Made by a program: the position numbers and the translations under genes
Assembly (NCBI GenBank): GCA_021773135.1
Contig: JAJFKP010000004.1
Location: 124,001 to 188,000 of the forward strand
Source of the DNA: Woeseiaceae bacterium
Lineage (GTDB): Bacteria; Pseudomonadota; Gammaproteobacteria; Steroidobacterales; Woeseiaceae
Reading direction: 5' to 3'
Length of the DNA: 64,000 nucleotides
Shown here: positions 43,695-64,000 of the stretch, one piece after another
Numbering within the stretch: the stretch's first letter is position 1
Layout: each line of letters starts with the position of its first letter
The notes under the pieces: generated by a model
Database searches by the model: none
The model's input: only the letters and a program-made list of their open reading frames with translations
Told to the model about the DNA's origin: nothing

Positions 43695-44291
43695 TTGCGA
43701 GCGCAATCGACCAGACAGTCAGGAATATCGCAGGATGGTCTGGTCTCTGTGGTAACTGAAGCGCCAACGGACGAATCTCGCTGGGTGCGACTGGCGAAGA
43801 AGGCGGACGCCGCCGCCTTCGAGAAGCTCTATCGCCTGCATGTGGACCGGGTCTACGGACTTTGTCTGCGCATGACGGGCAATCCGGCGGAGGCGGAGGA
43901 CTGCGTACAGGATGCATTCATACAGGCGTGGAACAAGCTCGAACTGTTTCGGGGTGACAGTTCCTTTGCAACCTGGATGCACAGGGTGGCCGTGAACACG
44001 GTGCTGGGTCGCATGCGCAAATCGAGACGCGAACAGGACCGCATACGGGCGGTCTCCGATGTCATCCCGGTAACGGAAACGATCGCCGACGATGGAGAAC
44101 TGCAGGACCTGGAACAGGCTATTAACGAACTTCCGAGCGGCGCCAGGCACGTGTTCGTGCTGCACGCGGTCTACGGCTACAGCCACAACGAGACCGGCAG
44201 CATGCTGGGTATCGCCGAGGGCACCAGCAAAGCACAATTAAGTCGTGCCAGGAGACTGCTGGTACAACAACTGGAAACGGAAAACGTATGA
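43695..44291 (+). CDS. RpoE-type ECF sigma factor
   Basis: A 198-aa sigma factor with region 2 (LYRLHVDRVYGLCLRMTGNPAEAEDCVQDAFIQAWNKL) containing the standard AEDCVQ motif, and region 4 (INELPSGARHVFVLHAVYGYSHNETGSMLGIAEGTSKAQLSRARR) with a helix-turn-helix. It uses TTG eight bases after GGGAGA. The TGA overlaps the start of a one-helix membrane protein that is probably its anti-sigma factor. Confidence 0.9.
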   Translation: MRAQSTRQSGISQDGLVSVVTEAPTDESRWVRLAKKADAAAFEKLYRLHVDRVYGLCLRMTGNPAEAEDCVQDAFIQAWNKLELFRGDSSFATWMHRVAVNTVLGRMRKSRREQDRIRAVSDVIPVTETIADDGELQDLEQAINELPSGARHVFVLHAVYGYSHNETGSMLGIAEGTSKAQLSRARRLLVQQLETENV

Positions 44292-44866
44292 CAGACAGTA
44301 ATAAAATTGAAGAGGCGGTGATGGAAAAAGCGGCACAGCTGCCGACATCCATCGCGCCGCAGCGCGATTTGTGGCCCTCGATCGAACAGGCCCTCAGCAC
44401 GCCGGCCCGGCCCGCGCGCACAGGGCGGGGTTCGATATGGGCGCAGGCAGCCGCCGTGCTACTGCTCGTTGGCGCGTCGTCGGCGTTGACCTATACCATC
44501 GTCAAAGACGGCGGCGGCGAGGCAACACCGCTCGTGCAGGATTTGCCACAACTGGTTTTCGAACCGGTCTCCGGCAGCTTCGGCAGTCAGTACAACTTAG
44601 GGCCCGGCTACCAAGACGCAAGAAGATACCTGGCGACCGGTTACGAGCGTGAACTTGCGCGCCTGGACCCGGAAACGCGCGCCGACATAGAGGCCAACGT
44701 CGCCACTATCGAACAGGCCATCAGGGATATTAATGTGTCCCTGGCTGAAGAGCCGGACAACGTTTTGTTGCAGCAATTGCTGTTGAGCACTTACCGGGAA
44801 GAGTTATCCCTGATGCTCACGGTAGAAGAAATTGGCAGTGCGACAATGCGCCGCGATGATATTTAG
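44288..44866 (+). CDS. Probable anti-sigma factor
   Basis: A 192-aa protein with a cytoplasmic N-terminal 50 residues, a single membrane helix (about 53-72, WAQAAAVLLLVGASSALTYT) and a periplasmic helical C-terminus. Position and four-base overlap with the sigma gene suggest it sequesters that factor. A zinc-binding HxxxCxxC motif is absent, so it is not a ZAS-type anti-sigma. Confidence 0.75.
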   Translation: MTDSNKIEEAVMEKAAQLPTSIAPQRDLWPSIEQALSTPARPARTGRGSIWAQAAAVLLLVGASSALTYTIVKDGGGEATPLVQDLPQLVFEPVSGSFGSQYNLGPGYQDARRYLATGYERELARLDPETRADIEANVATIEQAIRDINVSLAEEPDNVLLQQLLLSTYREELSLMLTVEEIGSATMRRDDI

Positions 44867-52936: not shown

Positions 52937-54472
52937 CTACGAACAATCTGTATGTATCGCGGTAATGCTGTACTGCTGGCCGCCAATCGAAAATTGTTGC
53001 GGTGTCACAGTAAATCGATACTCGTAAACGCGATTTCCAACTCGATCTTCCGCCGCCAAAGGCGAAATCGGCAAGCCTTGGGCGAAGGGTTGGTCAGCCC
53101 GCGAGCCGTTGATCGGCAGAATCTTGTCCAGGTCGACATTAACGTTTCCCGTGAACGTAATATTGAACGTTGGTCTGTACGCAGTGACGTCGCATCCAAC
53201 CCTTAACGTGTAGTGATCGACCGGATCATTGAGGCCTCCAACATTTGATTGCACCGCGGGAATCGGGGCGTTCTGGTTGAGAAAGCCGCCGCTGAAAAAC
53301 TCCGGCTGGGCAATACAGTTGTTGCCATCCGGACCCGAACCCTGGGGACAATTAGGGTTAACCGGCGTAGTCGTCGGAATCGATACCGGCAACGGTATCT
53401 TGCCAATACGCAGGGTATATTGTGCATTCAACCCGTTAACCGGCGGGATAGCCACGCGCAGGTAGAAAACGCCACCGACCAGCGAATTGTACGACAGCGT
53501 GTCATAGGCATCGCCACCGTTCGTTGAAGCCGCCACAAGCGTCTCGGAAGAATCAAACAGGTAGATATCCGCACCACTGCCGCTGGTATGCACCAGATCG
53601 GCATTGACGATGGACCCCGGGGCTACGTTGAAGATGAAGAAGTCTTCGCTGTCCGTTTGCCCGACAAAGTCAACCATTGCAGTAGGCGGGTCGCCCACTG
53701 CGCCAATGCTGGTCGCTGTCGCAAAGCTGTTGCCCGCGAAATCCTGCGGTGCTGCAGAAATTGACAGCGAAAACGGTATCGTCTGGCCGGGTCGACCAAA
53801 CAGGCGCACAAAGTGCGTGCCGCCCGGCATTTCGGCGGTGATCACGCCCAGCGAATCGGCAACCTGCCACTGCTGCGGCGTGACCAGCGGCGATACAGCT
53901 GCGCCTGTTGCTATCTGCGCATTGATGACCACGCTCCTCGTTGCTGGCAGTTCGAAGACATAGTCGACCCAACCCTCATTGGCGCCGACGTTCCCCTGTA
54001 ACAGGCGGTTCGTATTGGTGCCTGTGCCATCGATGAGTCCCAGCTGCTCGGTTCGTCCTGTTGGCGGACCTGCCGTATCGACACTAAGCTGGAAGTTCGT
54101 ATCAGCCGTCCACCCGTAAACCAGTATGGTGTAGTTTCCCTGCTGCAATCGCTGACTGATCTCCTCATTAGTGATGCCCGAGTTCGTGCTCATTGCCCAG
54201 GTGCCGTTATCGCCCCACACGTAGAGGCTCGCATAGGAAACCAGCCCGCTGAGCTCTATAGTTGACGCGCGCGTTTCACTGAGTGAGAAGGTGAAGTACT
54301 TGAAGGGGCTGGTTGCTCCGACCCGGTTGTTGCGAACTTCGCCCGCCGGGTTGTTACCCAGCGCGATCGCCGTCGCCCTCGAGCTGCCTGGCGCGTTTGA
54401 CTGCGCCAACACGGGCTGTGCGAGTAAAAAAATGATGCCCGTAACAAGCAGCATCCTGGATGTAATGTTCAT
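52937..54472 (-). CDS. Secreted protein with pre-peptidase C-terminal (PPC)-like domains
   Basis: A 511-aa exported protein with a signal peptide (MNITSRMLLVTGIIFLLAQPVLAQ). Two or more PPC-like beta-sandwich modules are suggested by YFTFSLSETRASTIELSGL and SEDFFIFNVAPGSIVNADLVHTSGSGADIYLFDS. No protease domain is present. A proline/cysteine linker (PVNPNCPQGSGPDGNNC) precedes an unrecognised C-terminal domain. AAGGAGA fixes the ATG at 54472; an ORF reaching 54604 is rejected because it would cover the promoter element. Confidence 0.8.
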   Translation of the reverse strand: MNITSRMLLVTGIIFLLAQPVLAQSNAPGSSRATAIALGNNPAGEVRNNRVGATSPFKYFTFSLSETRASTIELSGLVSYASLYVWGDNGTWAMSTNSGITNEEISQRLQQGNYTILVYGWTADTNFQLSVDTAGPPTGRTEQLGLIDGTGTNTNRLLQGNVGANEGWVDYVFELPATRSVVINAQIATGAAVSPLVTPQQWQVADSLGVITAEMPGGTHFVRLFGRPGQTIPFSLSISAAPQDFAGNSFATATSIGAVGDPPTAMVDFVGQTDSEDFFIFNVAPGSIVNADLVHTSGSGADIYLFDSSETLVAASTNGGDAYDTLSYNSLVGGVFYLRVAIPPVNGLNAQYTLRIGKIPLPVSIPTTTPVNPNCPQGSGPDGNNCIAQPEFFSGGFLNQNAPIPAVQSNVGGLNDPVDHYTLRVGCDVTAYRPTFNITFTGNVNVDLDKILPINGSRADQPFAQGLPISPLAAEDRVGNRVYEYRFTVTPQQFSIGGQQYSITAIHTDCS

Positions 54473-54524
54473 ACGGTTCTCCTTAAAGTCTGCATGAATC
54501 GTTTGAGGAAAATTCCTCTCTGGT

Positions 54525-54554
54525 ACATGCGAGAACCGCGCACGTATCGCGCCA
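54525..54554 (-). promoter_or_regulatory. Copy 1 of the TGRCGCR-N14-MTCGCATGK promoter-like element
   Basis: Read on the minus strand: TGGCGCG (54554-54548), a 14-bp spacer, and CTCGCATGT (54533-54525), then ACCAG. The ATG of the PPC-domain gene is about 52 bp downstream. Confidence 0.75.
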
Positions 54555-54588
54555 CCTGAACAGATCAGGGTGCACCACTCGCAAACGT

Positions 54589-54617
54589 AAAAAGGCCGCG
54601 ACAAGCATGCCGCGACC
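54589..54617 (-). terminator. Probable terminator of the small membrane-protein operon
   Basis: On the minus strand GGTCGCG (54617-54611) pairs with CGCGGCC (54600-54594), including one G-U pair, followed by five T residues. It lies 35 bp after the stop codon at 54652 and before the next promoter element. Confidence 0.65.
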
Positions 54618-54651
54618 CCGTTTGCCTATACCTCCTTTTGTCAGCGAGCCA

Positions 54652-54993
54652 TCAGGCACCAATGATCAGTTTCTGAAGTGACAGGTAGGTAAACCAGAGA
54701 CCCGCCGCCGCGAGAATTACCGACCAGTATTTGACGGGTATCCAGTAGAGATCATGCTTTGCTACCAGTGGCGCAGAATCCCCGGTTTCATCATCAATGA
54801 TGGTTAGCCCTGTTGACGCAAACTCGAGCAAAGTATGCAGCTTGTATACGATGGCAGCGGCAACCCAGGCGCCGAGCGCAGCGCTGAATTCGGGCAGGAT
54901 GCCAGTCACATCGGTCATATATTTTGCGGAAACAAACGACACGATCGCTGCCAGCAGAACCAGGTACCCCTGGCCGGTCCAGAAAATAAACAT
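54652..54993 (-). CDS. Small membrane protein of unknown function
   Basis: A 113-aa protein with three hydrophobic segments (about residues 9-25, 38-50 and 89-107) and a central polar loop (TIIDDETGDSAPLVAKHDLYWIP). I do not recognise a family. It starts 15 bp behind the gene ending at 55009, with AAGGAGAAG upstream, so the two share a transcript. Confidence 0.75.
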   Translation of the reverse strand: MFIFWTGQGYLVLLAAIVSFVSAKYMTDVTGILPEFSAALGAWVAAAIVYKLHTLLEFASTGLTIIDDETGDSAPLVAKHDLYWIPVKYWSVILAAAGLWFTYLSLQKLIIGA

Positions 54994-55008
54994 GGTGTCT
55001 TCTCCTTG

Positions 55009-55314
55009 TTAAAATTTTGAATGAAATTGCGCCTGTCCATACAGGCGCAAAGGGGCAGAGATTTGGGTCACCGCAATCATCAACATGCCGATTGCGATGA
55101 AGGTCAGGTTGAAGTCCGACAAGGCCGGCTCCAGGGTTGCCTGGAACTCGGTCGACTGCAGGCTGTTCTGCAGGAATCTCTGCCACTGGCGAATCGCTCT
55201 CTGATGCTGGGTTGCGAACAGCAGTCCACCGAAAATGCCAATGACCAGCTTGGTGAGGCAGATCGAGCCGGTTCGCTGCTCGGTGTCGGCTGAATTACGG
55301 GTCTGGCGAGGCAT
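55009..55314 (-). CDS. Small membrane protein of unknown function
   Basis: A 101-aa protein with two hydrophobic stretches (about 22-34, LTKLVIGIFGGLLFA, and 70-85, LTFIAIGMLMIAVTQISA) joined by a glutamine-rich helical segment. No family is recognised. AAAGGA fixes the ATG at 55314; the longer ORF to 55380 would start inside the promoter element. It leads a two-gene operon driven by that element. Confidence 0.75.
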   Translation of the reverse strand: MPRQTRNSADTEQRTGSICLTKLVIGIFGGLLFATQHQRAIRQWQRFLQNSLQSTEFQATLEPALSDFNLTFIAIGMLMIAVTQISAPLRLYGQAQFHSKF

Positions 55315-55344
55315 CGTTCTGTCCTTTAAGTTGCGCTTACTGGT

Positions 55345-55374
55345 ACATGCGAGGACGGCGACGAAAACGCGCCA
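55345..55374 (-). promoter_or_regulatory. Copy 2 of the TGRCGCR-N14-MTCGCATGK element
   Basis: Read on the minus strand: TGGCGCG (55374-55368), a 14-bp spacer, CTCGCATGT (55353-55345), then ACCAG as in copy 1. The ATG of the 101-aa gene is about 30 bp downstream. Confidence 0.75.
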
Positions 55375-55489
55375 GGCCATGAGCGCCTTAGCCCTGCGTG
55401 CCTTTCTGGCGGTGGGATGGGGTGCCTGCTAGGATCAATTGAGGCGCAGCCATACGGCACGCCGACCCTGAGTGCATGGCGAGGCAACC

Positions 55490-58075
55490 TTGGCGGACAC
55501 CAGCTGGAACAGGATGTGGGACGCGTTTCACCTGGCGCTTGAGCGCGAAGGCGCCGATCGCGAAGAATTTCTGCTTGCCGAGTTCGGCGATGCGCCGGAG
55601 CAGCTGGCCGAAATAAAGGCGCTGCTCAGCGCCCATGAAGATGCGTCCGCTGCCGGCGCCGATACGCGCGCACAGATCATTGCGGACTTGCAGAGACTCG
55701 ACCCGGAAAACCTCGTGGGAGAGACGATCGGTGACTATCGAATTCACGAGCTGATCGGTGAAGGGGGCATGGGGCTCGTCTACGCTGCCGAGCAGCTGCA
55801 GCCAATCAAGCGGCGCGTCGCACTGAAGATCATCAAGCTGGGTATGGATACCCGCGAGGTCATCGCCCGTTTCGAATCGGAACGCCAGGCGCTCGCACTG
55901 ATGGAGCACCCCAATGTTGCACGCATCCTCGATGCCGGCGCGACCAGCGATGGTCGCCCCTACTTCGTCATGGACTATGTGCCGGGTGTCGCGATCACAA
56001 CTTACGCGGATCAGGCGAAGTTAAGTCTGACCGCGCGCCTGCATTTATTCCTGGAAGTCTGTGACGCAATTCAACACGCACATCAGAAGGGCATCATTCA
56101 TCGCGACCTGAAACCTTCCAACATCCTGGTCAATAGCATCGACGGCAACGCCACGGCGAAGGTTATCGATTTTGGCGTTGCGAAAACGCTGACCCAGAAG
56201 CTCAGCGACAAAACTGTCTACACCAAGCTGGGACATTTTATTGGCACGCCGCGCTACATGAGCCCCGAGCAGGCAGAGATGGGGGCGCTCGGGGTCGACA
56301 TACGCAGCGATATCTATTCGCTTGGTGTCATCTTGTTCGAGTTACTGACGGGCCGTACGCCGATCAGCTCGGAGGCGTTTGCCAAATCAGGCACGAGTGG
56401 TATCGCCGACGTTATTCGCGGTGTTGCAGTTGCCAGGCCAAGCACGTTGTTCAGCGACGCCAGCGACGACAGGCAATCCGCTGCGATAAACCGTGCTGCC
56501 AGCGTGACCGACATGAAACGGCATCTGGGCGGCGATCTCGACTGGATTGTATTGAAGGCAATCGCCAAGGAGCGGTCCGATCGATATTCGTCGGTTGGCG
56601 AGTTATCGGGCGATATTTACCGGTACTTTCAGAACGAACCGGTGGTCGCCAAGCCGCCGCTCACGTCCTATCGATTCAGGAAATTTGTTGCCCGGCACAA
56701 GACCGGCGTCGGCGTGTCGGCGGTCATTCTACTGGCACTGGCAGCCACACTGGCTGGCCTGACCTTCGGCATCGTCAAGGCGAATCGTGCGCTGGAGGTC
56801 GTGGAATCGGAGCGACAACGCTCGCGCGCATCCTTCGATTTCCTGTCAGGTTTGTTAACGCGGGTCATTCCCGACACGGCAAACGGAGAGGATGCACGTC
56901 TGCTCAGATCGATCCTGGGTGAAGCCAGCGCTACGTTGCGAGATGCGCCGCCCGGCGACCAGCGCGTTCTGGCCGACCTGCATCAGACACTCGCCGAATC
57001 CTATCGAGCGCTGGGCGACTATGCAGCCGCCCGATCGCATGCGGATGCCAGCCTGGGTATCTGGCGCTCGCTGACCGGGCCCGATTCGCCGGCGGCGCTG
57101 CGTGCCGAGAACCTGGGGGCGCTTTTGCTGCTGGACACCGCGGATTTTAGCGAGAGTGAACGGGTTCTGCGCGACGTCGTCGAGCGGCAGGCCCGCGCGC
57201 TCGGGCGCGATCACGCAGATACGACTGCAACGCTCAATAACCTGGCGCTCGTTTTAATCCAGGTGGGGAAACCGGAAGAGGCAATGGCTCTTTTTGAAGA
57301 AGTGCTTGCGGCGCATGCAACGACATCCGGTGAAACCCCGGATGCCGCCTTGCGCACGCGTTTCAACATGGCGGCACTACTGGCAGATACCGGCCAGGCC
57401 GCAGCAGCCGAGGCCAGTGCCCGCGAACTCGAAGCGGCATACCGGAAACATTACGGGGCGCAGGATCCGAATACGCTATCCACTCGCGGGCTTCTCGCCC
57501 GCACCCTGCTGCAGCAGGGACGCATTGACGAGGCAAGGGTCATCCAGCAGGGAGCACTGCAGGACTCCATAGAGGTATTAGGTTCCACACATCGCGAAAC
57601 GCTCGGTCTCAAGCTCATTGCCGGACAAATACTCATGGCACAGGAAGACCCGATCGCCGCAGAAAACATGTTCCTCGAAGTGCTCTCCGCAACCGACGGC
57701 ATTTCCGTTGATATCTTCTCAGTCAGGTTGCCTGCGTTAATTGGCATATTCGATACGCTGGTAGCGCAAGACAAACCCGAGGAGGCCGCGCAACAGATAA
57801 CACAAGCAGAAACAATCGCTGCAGCCAGCCTGCCTGACGATCATCTGCTACGCGCGGTTATCGGGGCAAAGCTCGGCACCGTGTTGCTGGCAATGGACAG
57901 ACCCGCCGATGCTGTCGTGAAGCTGACCGAAGCCTACCCGACACTGCTGCAACAACTCGGTGCGACCAACACCACGACACGCACAGTGCTGCGTGACATC
58001 GTCGCAACCTACGAACAGCTGGGCCAGGCAGACGTTGCTGACCGGTATCGCAGCGACATATTTAATGCGCTCTGA
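55490..58075 (+). CDS. Transmembrane Ser/Thr protein kinase with TPR-like region
   Basis: An 861-aa Hanks-type kinase. The kinase domain (about residues 78-370) has GEGGMGLVY, the ALKIIK lysine, HRDLKPSN, DFGVAK and GTPRYMSPEQA. One membrane helix (about 408-428) is followed by a coiled segment and TPR-like repeats (QTLAESYRALGDYAAARSHA, TLNNLALVLIQVGKPEEAMA) to the end, probably periplasmic. TTG at 55490 has GAGG five bases upstream; an in-frame GTG at 55472 has none. It is divergent from the small membrane-protein operon and lies 4.3 kb from an ECF sigma gene of the kinase-associated class. Confidence 0.9.
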   Translation: MADTSWNRMWDAFHLALEREGADREEFLLAEFGDAPEQLAEIKALLSAHEDASAAGADTRAQIIADLQRLDPENLVGETIGDYRIHELIGEGGMGLVYAAEQLQPIKRRVALKIIKLGMDTREVIARFESERQALALMEHPNVARILDAGATSDGRPYFVMDYVPGVAITTYADQAKLSLTARLHLFLEVCDAIQHAHQKGIIHRDLKPSNILVNSIDGNATAKVIDFGVAKTLTQKLSDKTVYTKLGHFIGTPRYMSPEQAEMGALGVDIRSDIYSLGVILFELLTGRTPISSEAFAKSGTSGIADVIRGVAVARPSTLFSDASDDRQSAAINRAASVTDMKRHLGGDLDWIVLKAIAKERSDRYSSVGELSGDIYRYFQNEPVVAKPPLTSYRFRKFVARHKTGVGVSAVILLALAATLAGLTFGIVKANRALEVVESERQRSRASFDFLSGLLTRVIPDTANGEDARLLRSILGEASATLRDAPPGDQRVLADLHQTLAESYRALGDYAAARSHADASLGIWRSLTGPDSPAALRAENLGALLLLDTADFSESERVLRDVVERQARALGRDHADTTATLNNLALVLIQVGKPEEAMALFEEVLAAHATTSGETPDAALRTRFNMAALLADTGQAAAAEASARELEAAYRKHYGAQDPNTLSTRGLLARTLLQQGRIDEARVIQQGALQDSIEVLGSTHRETLGLKLIAGQILMAQEDPIAAENMFLEVLSATDGISVDIFSVRLPALIGIFDTLVAQDKPEEAAQQITQAETIAAASLPDDHLLRAVIGAKLGTVLLAMDRPADAVVKLTEAYPTLLQQLGATNTTTRTVLRDIVATYEQLGQADVADRYRSDIFNAL

Positions 58076-58105
58076 CAACAGACCTTCAGGGTGAGCAGTC
58101 GCAGG

Positions 58106-60760
58106 CTATCCGAGAGACAGCAGGAACCACGCTTCGCGATGAGTGCCGTCGCTGTGTTCGGTAATCAGCCGCAGCACCCAGTCCGCTGAACCGGCAAACT
58201 CCGCGGCAGGAATGTTCCCCAATTCGCCGTCAATTACCGCTGCACCGATTTCTGTCGCAACGCGTTTCCATGCCGTCGGCTCTTTGCCCGCGCCTATCTC
58301 AATCCAGGCACGCTCAAAGTCATTGGCGTCCGCGGTGCCCGAGACCGAGAGCAGAACCGCCCCATCCTGTTGCACGACCGTTGCGCCCGAGATCAGCGAG
58401 TCGATGTAGTAGTTCCTGTCCAGGCTGAGCGCAGCCGCGGCATTAACGATTCCGTAGCCGGTAAACTGGTCTTTTCCGGGCACGTCGGCGTCGTCTGCCG
58501 ACTGGGTGATGATGCGGTGCAGTTCGTCGTAATCCAGGTCCGGCTGCTTCGACAGTACGAGGGACGCGATCCCGGTAACAATCGGTGCGGCAAACGAGGT
58601 GCCACTGACCCGGTAATAGCGTTTGTCATCACCAACGTAATTTGCCGACCTGACATATTCGACGTCGGGAATATCGAGCATCGTATCGGTTCGGCGTGCC
58701 CGCAAACTCAGCACGTCAATGCCGGGCGCGGCGATATCCACCTGCTCACCCCAGTTGGAAAAAACAGTGCGCGCATCCTGCAGGTCTGTAGCGGCGACGG
58801 TCAGCACGCCTTCAAGCCCTGCCGGACCGTAGTCCTCCAGGTCCTGACCTTCATTGCCGGCAGCCGCAATGATGAGAACGCCGTTTGCAATGGCATAATC
58901 AACGGCGGCGCGCTCAATGCGACTCAGTTTTTCTCCGCCGACACTGATGTTGACCAGTCGTGCACCGTTATCAACTGCATACACGATGGATTCGGCGATG
59001 TAAGAGGCACGCGTATTGCCGAACGCGTTCAGCGCTTTCAGGACCATCAGTTTTGAATAAGGATTGATGCCGGCAATACCAACGTCGTTATTCTGCGTTG
59101 CCGAAATGATTCCCGCTACGATCGTGCCGTGGCCGTCATAGTCCCACGGCAGGTTGTTGGCACGCATGAAGTCCCAACCGATTACATCGTCAATATACCC
59201 ATTGCCGTCATCGTCAAGCTGGTTATCCGGAATTTCGGCGCCGTTTTTCCAGATGTTGTCCCAGGAAATATCCAGGTGGTTCCAGTCCAGGCCGGTGTCA
59301 ATCACCGCGACGACAACAGGCTCGGGACTGGTGCCCAGTTGATTCCATGCGGAATCATCCTCTGCCGTCAGGCCAACTCGCTTGATCGCCCATTGATCGT
59401 CATAAGGCTGGCCCCACGAGCCGCTTTTGCCACGCGAGGCAGTTTGCACGAAACTCGGATCGTTCGGCGCCTGCTTCGTGCGACACCAGTTTTCCTCGAT
59501 GATCAGCCAGTCCAGCGTGTTGAGAGTTTGCAGGACCGGATTAACGACCGGAGCTGCAGTTTCCGGAAACGTCAGCGTAATAAACGGCGTATTACCGATC
59601 ACCTGGCCCTGGTGCAGGTACGGTCCCAGGTCCGCCGGCAGGTTTTCCACAAACTCGCGAATATCGTCTCCGGCACCGCCCTCGAGAATAAAACTCCGGA
59701 TCGGGTCGATGTCTATTTCGTACTCAATCGGCTCAGGCACCCCCGACAGGGAATCCACAAGCATTTCTCTGTCAATCGCCAATTGCAGCGCAAGCGCCAA
59801 TCTGCCGTCGTCGTCTGTCACACCCTGTAAAGGCTCCCCGTCAAAACCATCCTGGGGTTTGTCCGCACCATTAACAGGCAATGCGCCAGGCGGAAAGAAG
59901 ATCTTGAGTGGCGCTGCGGCGACAGCCTGTTCCGTCTGCGTACCATCAGGTTCCAGCACGGTTTTCTTCGCCTTGACGAATATATTAAACGTGCCTGCGG
60001 TAGCGATATTGCTGCCGAGCTCTACGGCATCAGCGTTTGTTTCAGGTATTGCTTCTTCCCCTGCGGTGTCCGCCCCTATAACTTCATCAGAGGCACTGCC
60101 CATGACGGGCTCTGTAAACTCCTCGTCACTTTCGTCCGGTTCCTCGTCATCGCCTTCCCTGTCTCCGACGATGACGCGATCAGCGACGTTGCCCATGATG
60201 GGTACAGGAAATTCTTCATCGGCAGGGGTCAATCCACCGGGCGATGCAGATGCAGTATTTCCGGGCGGAAGCACATCCCCGGGGAAGCCGCCGTCCGGAG
60301 CGATCGGTGAACCGGGCATCAGGAATGGGGGAATGAGTGGTACTCCGTTTCTTACGGGTGCAGAAGAGAAAGGAAATAAATCGGGGGGCTGTTCACCAGC
60401 GGCCGTGAAAGTTCCACCGGGTGAGAAAGGCAAAACGAAAGTTTGTGGAAGCGTCGGCCTGAACGTGCACCATTCGTTACCCTCGATCGCGACATTCAAA
60501 CCGGTAAAGACAGGCTGGTTGGCGCCAACTACCAGATCGTCTCTGTCTATCTGATCAGCGGGGATATCAAAAAAAAACGGATCGTCGATCATGCCCTTGA
60601 AAACCCGCACGTTTGCGTCAACACCCGAGCTCCCGTTTTCGTCTTGCTGAGCCCGGCCCGTTGAAACAATCGATAGCAGTAGCACAGATATCAGCAGGTA
60701 GCGGCCGAAGGACAGGCATCGCGGCAAATTCGTCAAGAAACGCATCGTCGAGTCATTCAC
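58106..60760 (-). CDS. Secreted subtilisin-like protease with DUF4331-like N-terminus
   Basis: An 884-aa S8 protease with a signal peptide ending near residue 37. Residues about 50-95 (NVRVFKGMIDDPFFFD and FTGLNVAIEG) resemble the opening of DUF4331 proteins. Residues 120-240 are Pro/Gly/acid-rich and hold a duplicated EEFxxPxMGxxxDxVI unit about 31 residues apart. The catalytic domain (about 475-780) has Asp in VAVIDTGLDW, His in GHGTIVAG, oxyanion Asn in AAAGNEG and Ser in SGTSFAAP, with Ca-type DDDGNGYIDD. GTG at 60760 is chosen because GGGGAG lies eight bases upstream. Confidence 0.9.
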   Translation of the reverse strand: MNDSTMRFLTNLPRCLSFGRYLLISVLLLSIVSTGRAQQDENGSSGVDANVRVFKGMIDDPFFFDIPADQIDRDDLVVGANQPVFTGLNVAIEGNEWCTFRPTLPQTFVLPFSPGGTFTAAGEQPPDLFPFSSAPVRNGVPLIPPFLMPGSPIAPDGGFPGDVLPPGNTASASPGGLTPADEEFPVPIMGNVADRVIVGDREGDDEEPDESDEEFTEPVMGSASDEVIGADTAGEEAIPETNADAVELGSNIATAGTFNIFVKAKKTVLEPDGTQTEQAVAAAPLKIFFPPGALPVNGADKPQDGFDGEPLQGVTDDDGRLALALQLAIDREMLVDSLSGVPEPIEYEIDIDPIRSFILEGGAGDDIREFVENLPADLGPYLHQGQVIGNTPFITLTFPETAAPVVNPVLQTLNTLDWLIIEENWCRTKQAPNDPSFVQTASRGKSGSWGQPYDDQWAIKRVGLTAEDDSAWNQLGTSPEPVVVAVIDTGLDWNHLDISWDNIWKNGAEIPDNQLDDDGNGYIDDVIGWDFMRANNLPWDYDGHGTIVAGIISATQNNDVGIAGINPYSKLMVLKALNAFGNTRASYIAESIVYAVDNGARLVNISVGGEKLSRIERAAVDYAIANGVLIIAAAGNEGQDLEDYGPAGLEGVLTVAATDLQDARTVFSNWGEQVDIAAPGIDVLSLRARRTDTMLDIPDVEYVRSANYVGDDKRYYRVSGTSFAAPIVTGIASLVLSKQPDLDYDELHRIITQSADDADVPGKDQFTGYGIVNAAAALSLDRNYYIDSLISGATVVQQDGAVLLSVSGTADANDFERAWIEIGAGKEPTAWKRVATEIGAAVIDGELGNIPAAEFAGSADWVLRLITEHSDGTHREAWFLLSLG

Positions 60761-60812
60761 GGGCAAATCTCCCCGGATCACGTGAGGATCCAAAATCGTG
60801 GTCGTTAACTGA

Positions 60813-60842
60813 CCATGCGATAGATCTGTAATTTTTGCGCCA
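60813..60842 (-). promoter_or_regulatory. Copy 3 of the TGRCGCR-N14-MTCGCATGK element
   Basis: Read on the minus strand: TGGCGCA (60842-60836), a 14-bp spacer, ATCGCATGG (60821-60813). It is the most divergent copy in the second box but keeps TCGCATG and the exact spacer. The subtilase GTG is about 52 bp downstream. The rest of the divergent gap (60761-61079) contains no gene. Confidence 0.6.
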
Positions 60843-60984
60843 AATGACGGCCTGGCGGCCGTAATTAGCGGATTTCTGTTATTGTTTACAGGCTAGAACA
60901 ATAACAAAAAGACGGGTTTCAAGCGCCAGTTCGTTGCGGGGACCGTGCATCTCGCCGAACCGGGCGGCGGCTTTTGAAGAAATC

Positions 60985-61014
60985 TGACGCATTCAGGGAC
61001 GGTTCCTCGCATGT
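60985..61014 (+). promoter_or_regulatory. Copy 4 of the TGRCGCR-N14-MTCGCATGK element
   Basis: TGACGCA (60985-60991), a 14-bp spacer, CTCGCATGT (61006-61014). The ATG of the outer-membrane protein is 65 bp downstream. Confidence 0.72.
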
Positions 61015-61079
61015 GCAACCAGCGCTGAACGAGTTTGGCGTCGAGATTCCTGAAACCCGAATTGAGAAGGAGTAACCCA

Positions 61080-62423
61080 ATGAACATTCAGCAACGCATG
61101 GTCATCGCATCGGCGGCACTTGGTATGTTTCTTTACAGCACACTGGCGTTCGCCGTGTATGGTCAGCAGGTCGTCATCCAGAGTGGTGACGCATCTGCCC
61201 TGCAGGGTGCCACGCTATCCTTCACGACCGCCGCTGGCGAGGCAGTGCCAGTCACGATCGAGGAAGAAGCGGATGGGCGCATCACAGCCACGATCCAGTT
61301 CTCTGGCGATCGCCGTGGCGGGCAGAGTGAGCGTGGCACGCTCGTCGTGCTCGACAACGGCGAATCAACGTCGTTTGCGCTACCGCCGGCACGTGTTGAC
61401 GAATATTTGTTGGTGGGCCTCGAGACCGGCAACGTCTCGATGCTCACGTTGTCCCCCGGTATGGCCGCTGCGCCTGCAACGCCGGGCTGGACGCTCGGTA
61501 TCGGTGGTTTTGCCTCTGATTTGACCACGCCCGAGATCGGTACATCCGGAGTCATTTCGGAGGGCGGGTCTGAATCCTTTATCCTGCGTGGAGTCGATTC
61601 AGTTGATCTGACTGGCGTCAATGTCTCTTTGTCCCGCAATCTTGGTGGGCAACGCAACGCAAAATGGTTTGGCGCATTTCAAAGCGGCACTGGCGATGAC
61701 CAGACCACCGCCGATGTACCGACAATGACGACCAACACAGCCCTGGTATTCACTGACTTCATACAGGGCGTCACGGGCATCGGGGTTTTTCCGGTCGGCG
61801 TTCAATCGTCCCTGGATGTCGATGTAGACGTCACGCAGTTTCGCTTCGGTTATCAATTCGATTTTCGTGAAACCGGACAGTCCCGATTGACGGCGAGGTT
61901 TTATGGACAATACGGGGAAATGGAAATTGAACAAAACAGCACGGACACGCTGATCGACCCGGCATTCGGCGGGCAGAATCCGTCAGCGACGCGCAACCAG
62001 GAGCTGGAACAGACTGAGATCGATGTATACGCCGGGCTCCGCTACACGCGCGACATTAATGACGTTGCTGCCTGGTTTATTGAAGGCGGGCCAATTGTTC
62101 GTGTCCTCGATGCAGACTGGACGTCGACTGAGCGAGTGCAGTGCGCCATTTGTGGCGCGCCGCTGATTGACAACACGGTCGAGCGCAGTGCCAGCGAAAG
62201 TGGTACCAGCGTTGGCGGACAGGCGAGCTTAGGGCTCGACTTCAATCTTGGCGAGAACACGGTACTCGAGTTTGAAGCTTATTATCGCGGCGGCATGGAT
62301 AACGCCGCGCCGATCAACCCGCAGTCAGGCGACGATCTTGCCGTTCTTAATCAGCCGACTTTTCTGTCGACTGACACGAGCGCCGAGTTTGGTGGCCGCG
62401 TAAGGGTACTGTTCAGCTTTTGA
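61080..62423 (+). CDS. Outer-membrane beta-barrel protein of unknown function
   Basis: A 447-aa exported protein with a signal peptide (about residues 1-23, ending LAFA). Residues 25-140 look like a small beta domain, and the rest alternates short hydrophobic strands and turns as in a barrel, ending VRVLFSF with a terminal phenylalanine recognised by the BAM machinery. AAGGAG precedes the ATG. No transport or adhesion family is recognised. Confidence 0.8.
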   Translation: MNIQQRMVIASAALGMFLYSTLAFAVYGQQVVIQSGDASALQGATLSFTTAAGEAVPVTIEEEADGRITATIQFSGDRRGGQSERGTLVVLDNGESTSFALPPARVDEYLLVGLETGNVSMLTLSPGMAAAPATPGWTLGIGGFASDLTTPEIGTSGVISEGGSESFILRGVDSVDLTGVNVSLSRNLGGQRNAKWFGAFQSGTGDDQTTADVPTMTTNTALVFTDFIQGVTGIGVFPVGVQSSLDVDVDVTQFRFGYQFDFRETGQSRLTARFYGQYGEMEIEQNSTDTLIDPAFGGQNPSATRNQELEQTEIDVYAGLRYTRDINDVAAWFIEGGPIVRVLDADWTSTERVQCAICGAPLIDNTVERSASESGTSVGGQASLGLDFNLGENTVLEFEAYYRGGMDNAAPINPQSGDDLAVLNQPTFLSTDTSAEFGGRVRVLFSF

Positions 62424-62424
62424 T

Positions 62425-62988
62425 TCATCCAGCGTCGATACTGACCTTGAGCCACGCCTGTGCGCTGGTCCACAACCTGTTTACGGAGCGGGGAGACACG
62501 TCCATTGCCTGGGCGGTCTCCCCAACCGTGAGTCCTGCAAAGTAACGAAGTTTAACGACCTGGGCCATCGCGGCATCTTTCTCTTCGAGTTTGTCCAGTG
62601 CTTCATTCCACTCCAGCAGCTCGATGAGCTCGTCTTTATCCGCCACGTCGCCTTCCGCATACTCCGTACGCCTGAATTCCCCGCCATGTTTCATGCTGGC
62701 GTATTTCCGAGCCCGATCAATAAGGATGCGGCGCATCGCTTCAGCCGCGGCGCCATAAAAGTGTGCACGATTTTCCCAATCGACCTGTTGTCCACCCACC
62801 AGCCGCAAATAGGCTTCATTGACCAGCGCCGTTGCCTGCAACGTGATGCCGGGCCGCTCCCGCGCCATCCTGGAGCGGGCGAGCTTCTTTAGCTCGTCAT
62901 AGACCAGCGGCAGGATCTTGTTGTAAGCACCGGCGTCCTTGCCGGCGGCTGCCAGCAGTTGGGTCAGATTCTCTTGCTGATCGGTCAA
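62425..62988 (-). CDS. ECF sigma factor, TIGR02999 (Sig-70_X6) type
   Basis: A 187-aa sigma factor of the PF07638/TIGR02999 class. Region 2 reads ITLQATALVNEAYLRLVGG, WENRAHFYGAAAEAMRRILIDRAR, and region 4 MAQVVKLRYFAGLTVGETAQAMDVSPRSVNRLW. The acidic AED motif of ordinary ECF factors is replaced by TALVNEA with threonines at 49 and 53. Related kinase-linked ECF factors are switched on by threonine phosphorylation there rather than by an anti-sigma. It uses TTG and converges on the barrel gene one base after its stop. Confidence 0.9.
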   Translation of the reverse strand: MTDQQENLTQLLAAAGKDAGAYNKILPLVYDELKKLARSRMARERPGITLQATALVNEAYLRLVGGQQVDWENRAHFYGAAAEAMRRILIDRARKYASMKHGGEFRRTEYAEGDVADKDELIELLEWNEALDKLEEKDAAMAQVVKLRYFAGLTVGETAQAMDVSPRSVNRLWTSAQAWLKVSIDAG

Positions 62989-63057
62989 GGCAATCTTCTT
63001 GTTTTTATTGAAGTTTTCATCCTAGCAGTAAACACCGGCACGGCCAAGCGAGGTTTC

Positions 63058-63087
63058 TGGCGCGTTTTTCCGATCGTTCTCGCATGT
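63058..63087 (+). promoter_or_regulatory. Copy 5 of the TGRCGCR-N14-MTCGCATGK element
   Basis: TGGCGCG (63058-63064), a 14-bp spacer, CTCGCATGT (63079-63087). It lies 64 bp before the ATG of the OmpA-like gene and reads away from the divergent sigma-factor gene. Confidence 0.75.
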
Positions 63088-63151
63088 CCTGTTGAACCCC
63101 CACTAAAGCGGCCACAACTAAACCGGCCAATGACCAGGACAGGAGAACGAC

Positions 63152-64000
63152 ATGAACCATCGGCAGATATTCCAGGTAGCCACGCTTTTTGCTGCGCTGC
63201 TGAGCGCGCAGGCATTTGGCATTGAGCCGGACATGCCGGGGAGTAAAGATCATCCGGGCTTTCCGCGTGTCGAGGGCACCCGAATTGTTGGGTATTCCCT
63301 TGCTGAATATGACGTAGGCGGCTTCGTTTCCGAGATGGTCGACGGTGAACGAATCGTGCTGAATCCCGAAGGCAAACGGACACGGATAATGTACGTGGGA
63401 CGGGATACGCAAAGCACATTACAGATCATCAGAAATTATCAGAAAGCGCTGGCGGAATTCGGTGATTACCGGGAGGTGTTCGCCTGTCAAACGCTCGAGT
63501 GTGGACAGTCCATTGCCGGCAGATTCGTTTGGGCGAAGGAAAACCGGATACCGACAATCAGTCAATTCTGGAAACATCTGTACGGTGTCACGAGTTATTA
63601 CAAAACACCGAAATATATTTACGGCACCGTCGTTAAGGACGATAAGCAGTATCACATATCCGTGTTTTCAGCATTTGCGATCCGTAGTCCTAACGGCATT
63701 CAGAACAAGCCCACCGTGCACATCGAAATCGTCGAAGAAGAAGACTTCGAGTCAGACCTGGTATTTATAGATGCTACGGCAATGTCAGCGGAAATCGCAG
63801 AGCGCGGCAGTATCGCGCTCTACGGTATCCAGTTCGATTTCGATAGTGCCGCACTGCAGGCAAACTCTGACGACACGATCGCTGAAGTAGCCAAGGCGCT
63901 GAATGCAGACCCGGCGTTGAGCATCTACGTTGTCGGCCACACCGATGGCGAAGGCGCCCACGCCTACAACCAGGCGCTGTCAGAGAACCGGGCGAAGTCC
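63152..64000 (+). CDS. DUF4892/OmpA-like outer-membrane protein (runs off the window)
   Basis: An open frame of 283 codons to the end of the window with no stop, so the 3' end is missing. A signal peptide (MNHRQIFQVATLFAALLSAQAFG) is followed by a DUF4892-like domain (DHPGFPRVEGTRIVGYSLAEYDV) and an OmpA C-terminal peptidoglycan-binding domain (IQFDFDSAALQ, VVGHTDGEG). AGGAGAACGAC precedes the ATG. It probably tethers the outer membrane to peptidoglycan. Confidence 0.88.
   Translation, partial: MNHRQIFQVATLFAALLSAQAFGIEPDMPGSKDHPGFPRVEGTRIVGYSLAEYDVGGFVSEMVDGERIVLNPEGKRTRIMYVGRDTQSTLQIIRNYQKALAEFGDYREVFACQTLECGQSIAGRFVWAKENRIPTISQFWKHLYGVTSYYKTPKYIYGTVVKDDKQYHISVFSAFAIRSPNGIQNKPTVHIEIVEEEDFESDLVFIDATAMSAEIAERGSIALYGIQFDFDSAALQANSDDTIAEVAKALNADPALSIYVVGHTDGEGAHAYNQALSENRAKS

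Follow-up and report, generated by a model that had tools for sequence, protein, structure and literature searches.

A repeated bipartite promoter-like element around a kinase-linked ECF43-type sigma factor gene in a Woeseiaceae bacterium

We analysed a 64-kb stretch of DNA (64,000 nucleotides, hereafter the window) from the genome of a Woeseiaceae bacterium (assembly GCA_021773135.1, 4.55 Mb in 64 contigs; contig JAJFKP010000004.1, positions 124,001 to 188,000). Toward its end a bipartite promoter-like element recurs around a pair of genes coding for an extracytoplasmic function (ECF) sigma factor and a Ser/Thr kinase. The element pattern is TGRCGCR-N14-MTCGCATGK, that is box 1 (TGRCGCR), a 14-bp spacer and box 2 (MTCGCATGK). 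An earlier note on this DNA had claimed five copies, and a pattern scan of the window recovers all five with 0 mismatches at the positions and on the strands claimed. The note did not tie the elements to the intervening ECF sigma factor and kinase genes, and a sixth copy lay beyond its view.

Three of the copies read on the minus strand. Element 1 (54525..54554; TGGCGCG-N14-CTCGCATGT) stands before the gene of a 511-residue protein with a PPC domain (52937..54472, minus strand; PF04151, 33.1 bits), exported-type by its N-terminus, whose ATG begins 53 nt after the element. Element 2 (55345..55374; TGGCGCG-N14-CTCGCATGT) is followed after 31 nt by the ATG of a 101-residue small protein with a hydrophobic stretch (55009..55314, minus strand), and 15 bp after that gene comes a second one, for a 113-residue small membrane protein (54652..54993, minus strand); neither protein has a Pfam or NCBIfam match. 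These two adjacent genes for proteins with hydrophobic stretches, spanning 54652-55314 on the minus strand, form the second unit of the putative regulon. Element 3 (60813..60842; TGGCGCA-N14-ATCGCATGG) precedes an exported-type S8 subtilase, again judged from the N-terminus (58106..60745, minus strand; PF00082, 165.9 bits; 879 residues from the ATG), with a GTG 53 nt or an ATG 68 nt after the element.

The other copies read on the plus strand. Element 4 (60985..61014; TGACGCA-N14-CTCGCATGT) lies 66 nt before the ATG of an exported-type protein of 447 residues with a signal-like N-terminus (61080..62423, plus strand), which has no Pfam or NCBIfam match and is possibly an outer-membrane barrel. 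Element 5 (63058..63087; TGGCGCG-N14-CTCGCATGT) lies 65 nt before the ATG of an exported-type OmpA-domain protein of 330 residues (63152..64000 in the window, running on to 64144, plus strand; PF00691, 45.2 bits on the in-window part). The sixth copy, with one mismatch, is found 263-292 bp past the window end (C24:188263-188292, equivalent to window position 64263-64292). It is intergenic, between the OmpA-domain gene, which ends at 64144, and a gene for an exported-type 753-residue protein with a hydrophobic N-terminus and no Pfam match, with its ATG beginning 52 nt downstream of this copy. The distance of about 30-65 bp to the start codon given earlier is therefore close to what we find in the window copies (31 to 66 nt, or 68 if the subtilase starts at the ATG and not at the upstream GTG), and the description of the five targets as exported or membrane proteins stands when judged by eye on their hydrophobic or signal-peptide-like N-termini.

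Both boxes were counted separately in the window. Box 2 occurs exactly at 5 sites on both strands together, and 5 of 5 have box 1 exactly 14 bp before; box 1 occurs exactly at 76 sites, and with spacers of 0 to 60 other than 14 none of these is followed in the window by a box 2 with at most 1 mismatch. The absence of further copies in the window, reported earlier from a search by eye, is borne out by the scan: the remainder has 0 matches at 1 mismatch, one at 2 and eight at 3. At up to 3 mismatches the window holds 14 matches and shuffled sequence a mean of 12.4, which is not above chance, and three-mismatch matches were excluded as uninformative. At up to 1 mismatch, the 20-kb region containing the elements has 6 matches compared to a mean of 0.023 and a maximum of 1 in 300 dinucleotide shuffles.

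Across the whole genome, 44 places match with up to 2 mismatches (5 exact, all of them in the window, 5 with one mismatch and 34 with two), and the reversed pattern used as a control on the same genome yields 20. Two-mismatch matches in the genome mean little by themselves, most of them being background. The upstream placement of the element, by contrast to a location within genes, holds for the six best copies of the genome (5 exact and 1 with one mismatch), all of which are in sense orientation before start codons. This check covered the exact and the one-mismatch places; 1 of the 5 one-mismatch places is the intergenic sixth copy and the other 4 are inside open reading frames (ORFs). A relaxed pattern without mismatches, TGRCGCR-N16-CGCATKK, has 8 matches in the genome, 6 of them in the cluster, and its control 0. 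Among 107 genomes of the family the count of 8 is the highest, the next being 5, and matches are present in 65 of the 107.

Such copies could be explained by chance resemblance or by a small functionless dispersed repeat. The background level of three-mismatch matches and of two-mismatch genome matches is in line with it, whereas the six copies where no shuffle has more than 1, the likeness confined to the boxes and absent from spacer and flanks, and the copies found out of sample, past the window end and in relatives, all argue against it. We consider this explanation extremely unlikely.

The sigma factor gene lies among the elements (62425..62988, minus strand) and codes for a protein of 187 residues assigned to the ECF43 type by family models and alignments (TIGR02999, 184.6 bits with a cut-off of 126.15; PF07638, 169.3 bits); we take these Sig-70_X6 / Sigma70_ECF family models to cover ECF43. 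It carries a threonine, T53, in the motif QATA and a recognition helix reading SPRSVNRLWT. The kinase gene (55472..58075, plus strand) codes for a Hanks-type Ser/Thr kinase of 867 residues, with a kinase domain match at residues 89-312 (PF00069, 143.9 bits) and C-terminal TPR matches beyond about residue 500; its sequence also shows HRD and DFG motifs and one hydrophobic segment. Elements 2 and 5 adjoin the kinase and sigma factor genes and point away from them, so that neither gene has a sense element of its own here.

The available portions of PMC8999054 and PMC13147305 describe ECF43 sigma factors as having the acidic motif of region 2.2, which contacts core polymerase, replaced by uncharged residues including a threonine, and as being activated when a neighbouring kinase phosphorylates that threonine. 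In the window sigma factor and its four closest relatives described below, the acidic motif is likewise replaced by an uncharged one, QATA or QPTA, with an invariant threonine, and a threonine occupies the T53 position in 184 of 189 aligned relatives. As far as these sequences tell, the pair matches the ECF43 arrangement in three features: the sigma factor family, the threonine motif and the neighbouring kinase.

Two systems described in the same portions are close to this one. EcfP-PknT of Vibrio parahaemolyticus, also ECF43, shares the uncharged threonine motif and the adjoining Ser/Thr kinase gene; its motif is STTA and its output polymyxin resistance (PMC8999054), whereas here the motif is QATA and the candidate output a local set of exported-type proteins. 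In Xanthomonas citri, EcfK-PknS resembles our pair in placing an ECF43 sigma factor and a Hanks-type transmembrane kinase within the cluster that they control, and in having a threonine at the same place (T51 in QATE, compared to T53 in QATA here); its target is a type VI secretion system used against amoebae (PMC13147305). Kinase-linked ECF sigma factors are thus already known, and the present locus is a further example with its own candidate promoter set. We found no target promoter motif of ECF43 in the available portions of PMC13147305, PMC8999054 and PMC6653060, and we do not claim that the element is unreported.

The spacer is 14 bp in 10 of 10 elements, taking the six copies together with four from related genomes described below. 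A pyrimidine-purine step falls at +6/+7 after the element in 9 of the 10, element 1 being the only one without it, and position +7 is a purine in all 10. With a start at +7, TGGCGC would span -36 to -31 and CGCATG -13 to -8, the proper places of -35 and -10 boxes; the predicted starts for elements 1 to 5 are 54518, 55338, 60806, 61021 and 63094. Ordinary ECF promoters, such as those of RpoE, also have two boxes at near-fixed spacing, a start few nucleotides after the second box and envelope targets. Their AAC-containing -35 and CGT-containing -10 are not matched by the boxes TGGCGC and CGCATG.

The same layout might be expected of a DNA-binding regulator whose site lies at a fixed place beside ordinary promoters, since the element is recurrent, oriented and upstream and the start sites are predicted ones. 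The boxes are neither symmetric nor repeats of one another, the spacing between them is fixed, the pyrimidine-purine step stands downstream at promoter distance, and no regulator gene besides the sigma factor and the kinase was seen to be common to the five loci compared. Taken together, these features make a regulator site quite unlikely.

Relatives of the sigma factor are present in 35 of the 107 family genomes at E <= 1e-20. At this threshold the number of ECF43-type sigma factor genes varies from none, in 72 of the 107, up to ten in one genome (G032). The closest four sigma factors, in G033, G089, G090 and G081, are 55-56% identical in the search and 51-54% over the alignment; searches of samples from the phylum (398 genomes) and the order (395 genomes) added no further close orthologue. 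A kinase homologous to that of the window is encoded at 4 of 4 orthologue loci (L078-L081), and the sigma factor and kinase are the only genes seen to be common to all five loci. At up to 2 mismatches each of the four loci has exactly one match, which keeps the 14-bp spacer and lies upstream of an exported-type gene, and each element points at the start of an ORF on the same strand. The similarity among the ten elements is limited to the boxes, spacer and flanks being unlike.

The genes behind these elements vary. At L078 the element precedes a gene for a 359-residue protein, whose match to an outer-membrane barrel is weak and below the cut-off, followed by a subtilase gene whose product is 46% identical to the window subtilase over 462 residues. 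At L079, L080 and L081 the elements precede RHS-repeat/PKD proteins of about 1730-1860 residues; these RHS/YD-repeat proteins with PKD domains (L079 5397-10580, L080 4118-9658, L081 4856-10450) adjoin the sigma-kinase pair. A further RHS/YD-repeat protein, recognized by eye, adjoins the pair at L082 (10953-12446), a locus with a more distant sigma factor. Unlike L079-L082, the window cluster is without such proteins. At L080 and L081 feedback is possible, because the element precedes this gene and then the sigma factor and kinase genes on the same strand.

As a matrix built from all ten elements is circular for the four orthologue loci, the claim for these loci rests on a held-out matrix made from the six own copies only, which never saw them. 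With this matrix the four rank 1, 2, 10 and 14 of 105 ECF43-type loci (P about 2e-4, ties counted against). The best score over spacers 8-20 is reached at 14 bp, with a mean of 18.6 bits at the four loci compared to 15.0 for the next, so the spacer called invariant in the window is conserved at orthologous loci as well. When upstream sequence only is scanned (100 other loci), the first two places go to L081 and L080, L078 and L208 share third place, and L082 comes fifth; L079 is missed there, its element lying within a longest-ORF extension that was masked.

These relatives also bear on the question of which sigma factor would read the elements. A different sigma factor of the cell could use them as promoters, with the local one acting elsewhere: apart from the local gene, TIGR02999 has ten matches in the genome (E <= 0.001), of which three exceed the family cut-off, the window contains a further ECF gene near 44 kb, and the link between element and sigma factor is one of co-occurrence. 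That co-occurrence extends to the orthologues of the local sigma factor in four other genomes, the sigma factor and kinase being all that the five loci were seen to share, and no comparable element was found beside the three other above-cut-off TIGR02999 genes of the own genome (L085 has one 2-mismatch place, L083 and L084 none). Another sigma factor as the reader therefore appears unlikely.

The earlier proposal of sigma factor promoters is supported by the sense placement, by the 14-bp spacer at orthologous loci and by the ECF sigma factor and kinase genes nearby. The sequence itself shows the elements and where they lie, the spacer shared with four relatives, the sigma-kinase pair and the conserved threonine. 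We hold it to be very probable that the elements are promoters of the kinase-linked ECF43-type sigma factor encoded at 62425-62988 and that the six units are switched on together. TGGCGC would be the -35 element, read by region 4 of the sigma factor through its VNRxWT recognition helix, and CGCATG the -10 element, read by region 2, with 17 bp between the cores. The neighbouring kinase may sense a signal via its TPR part and phosphorylate the sigma factor at Thr53, giving it the charge for binding core RNA polymerase; the six units, all coding for exported or membrane proteins, would then be expressed together. We infer the local sigma factor as the reader, the transcription start positions and phosphorylation as the trigger. 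The neighbouring kinase probably activates the sigma factor, and in this respect the system would differ from ordinary ECF sigma factors, where activation comes by release from an anti-sigma factor.

The recognition helix offers a further comparison. The five sigma factors form one clade with support 98/83 in a tree of 108 rows, which includes two Planctomycetota rows (L098, L099) on which the five-member clade does not depend. We scored the helix on all 189 ECF43-type proteins by text pattern and by alignment, and VNR.WT in the region-4 recognition helix is found in these 5 of 189 only. Sigma factors with the helix VKRDW come from another family of the order (L262-L265, 49-51% identical) and from the class (L296, 55%). 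The scan with the ten-element matrix shows no element above 17 bits at L262, L264 and L265; at L263 the best place, 18.2 bits, lies inside the sigma factor gene, and at L296 a place of 17.1 bits is terminator-like, neither locus having a comparable upstream element. The sigma factor of L082 is outside the clade and has the helix INRQWT. It stands beside a relaxed element, as a helix code would predict: TGGCGCG-N14-TGCGCATTA about 50 bp after the kinase gene, with a T-A step at +6/+7 and an ATG about 60 nt on. This fit is suggestive only, and the downstream protein does not look exported.

We hypothesize that an NRxWT helix reading TGGCGC and a region 2 reading CGCATG constitute the promoter code of one kinase-activated ECF43 clade, and that the targets of the sigma-kinase switch differ between species, the subtilase and other exported-type proteins being found in two and giant RHS/PKD proteins in three. 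We give this broader proposal even chances of being right.

Several observations weigh against assigning the elements to the local sigma factor. The +7 offset was settled on with 15 columns in view, and purines likewise fill columns 4 and 8 in all ten elements. Chance alone yields a match with up to 2 mismatches in 23-35% of the shuffles made from each orthologue locus, and such a match is also found in 18 of 101 other ECF43-type loci; all four orthologue loci are matched together in 0 of 200 shuffles, with about 1 expected if they are independent. In the held-out scan the elements of L079 and L078 share their scores with non-orthologue loci, and third place goes to L296, which has the VKRDW helix, for a site of 18.2 bits resembling part of a terminator. 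The close relationship of L080 and L081 means that the ten elements cannot be counted as independent. The link between helix and element runs through a single clade only, so that common descent alone could pair them. As to the trigger, EcfK of X. citri still works with T51A and linker sites matter (available portions of PMC13147305); activation here may accordingly involve other sites besides T53.

With six near-identical putative local promoters, a candidate reader and a candidate kinase, the locus represents a directly testable regulon. Likewise the five helices and ten elements form a natural set on how ECF43 sigma factors choose their promoters.

The repetition seen at this locus stands out: with 105 ECF43-type loci compared for a bipartite element repeated within a locus, six copies are found only here, and the other loci and the shuffles reach at most 3. 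The apparent inverted repeats at L213 and L247 probably each represent a single site seen on the two strands of a divergent intergenic region. We also looked for a promoter common to ECF43-type loci by pooling 4+4 gapped words from 1018 upstream regions of 101 loci, which yielded no motif of general occurrence. The best word, ATTG-N15-TTTG, found at 22 places in 19 loci, was rejected as mostly a sigma70-like extended -10 sequence before the ECF gene in another clade. Its longer form, ATTGCG-N13-TTTG[CT]TATC, lies before the ECF gene at L188, L193, L196, L207, L209, L213, L231, L242 and L250; this clade mostly has the helix VDRDL, and the sequence reads as an extended -10 sigma70-like promoter.

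The second ECF sigma factor gene of the window, at about 43800-44400 on the plus strand, has a weak TIGR02999 match (20.9 bits). The ORF after it has a hydrophobic stretch and could code for an anti-sigma factor.

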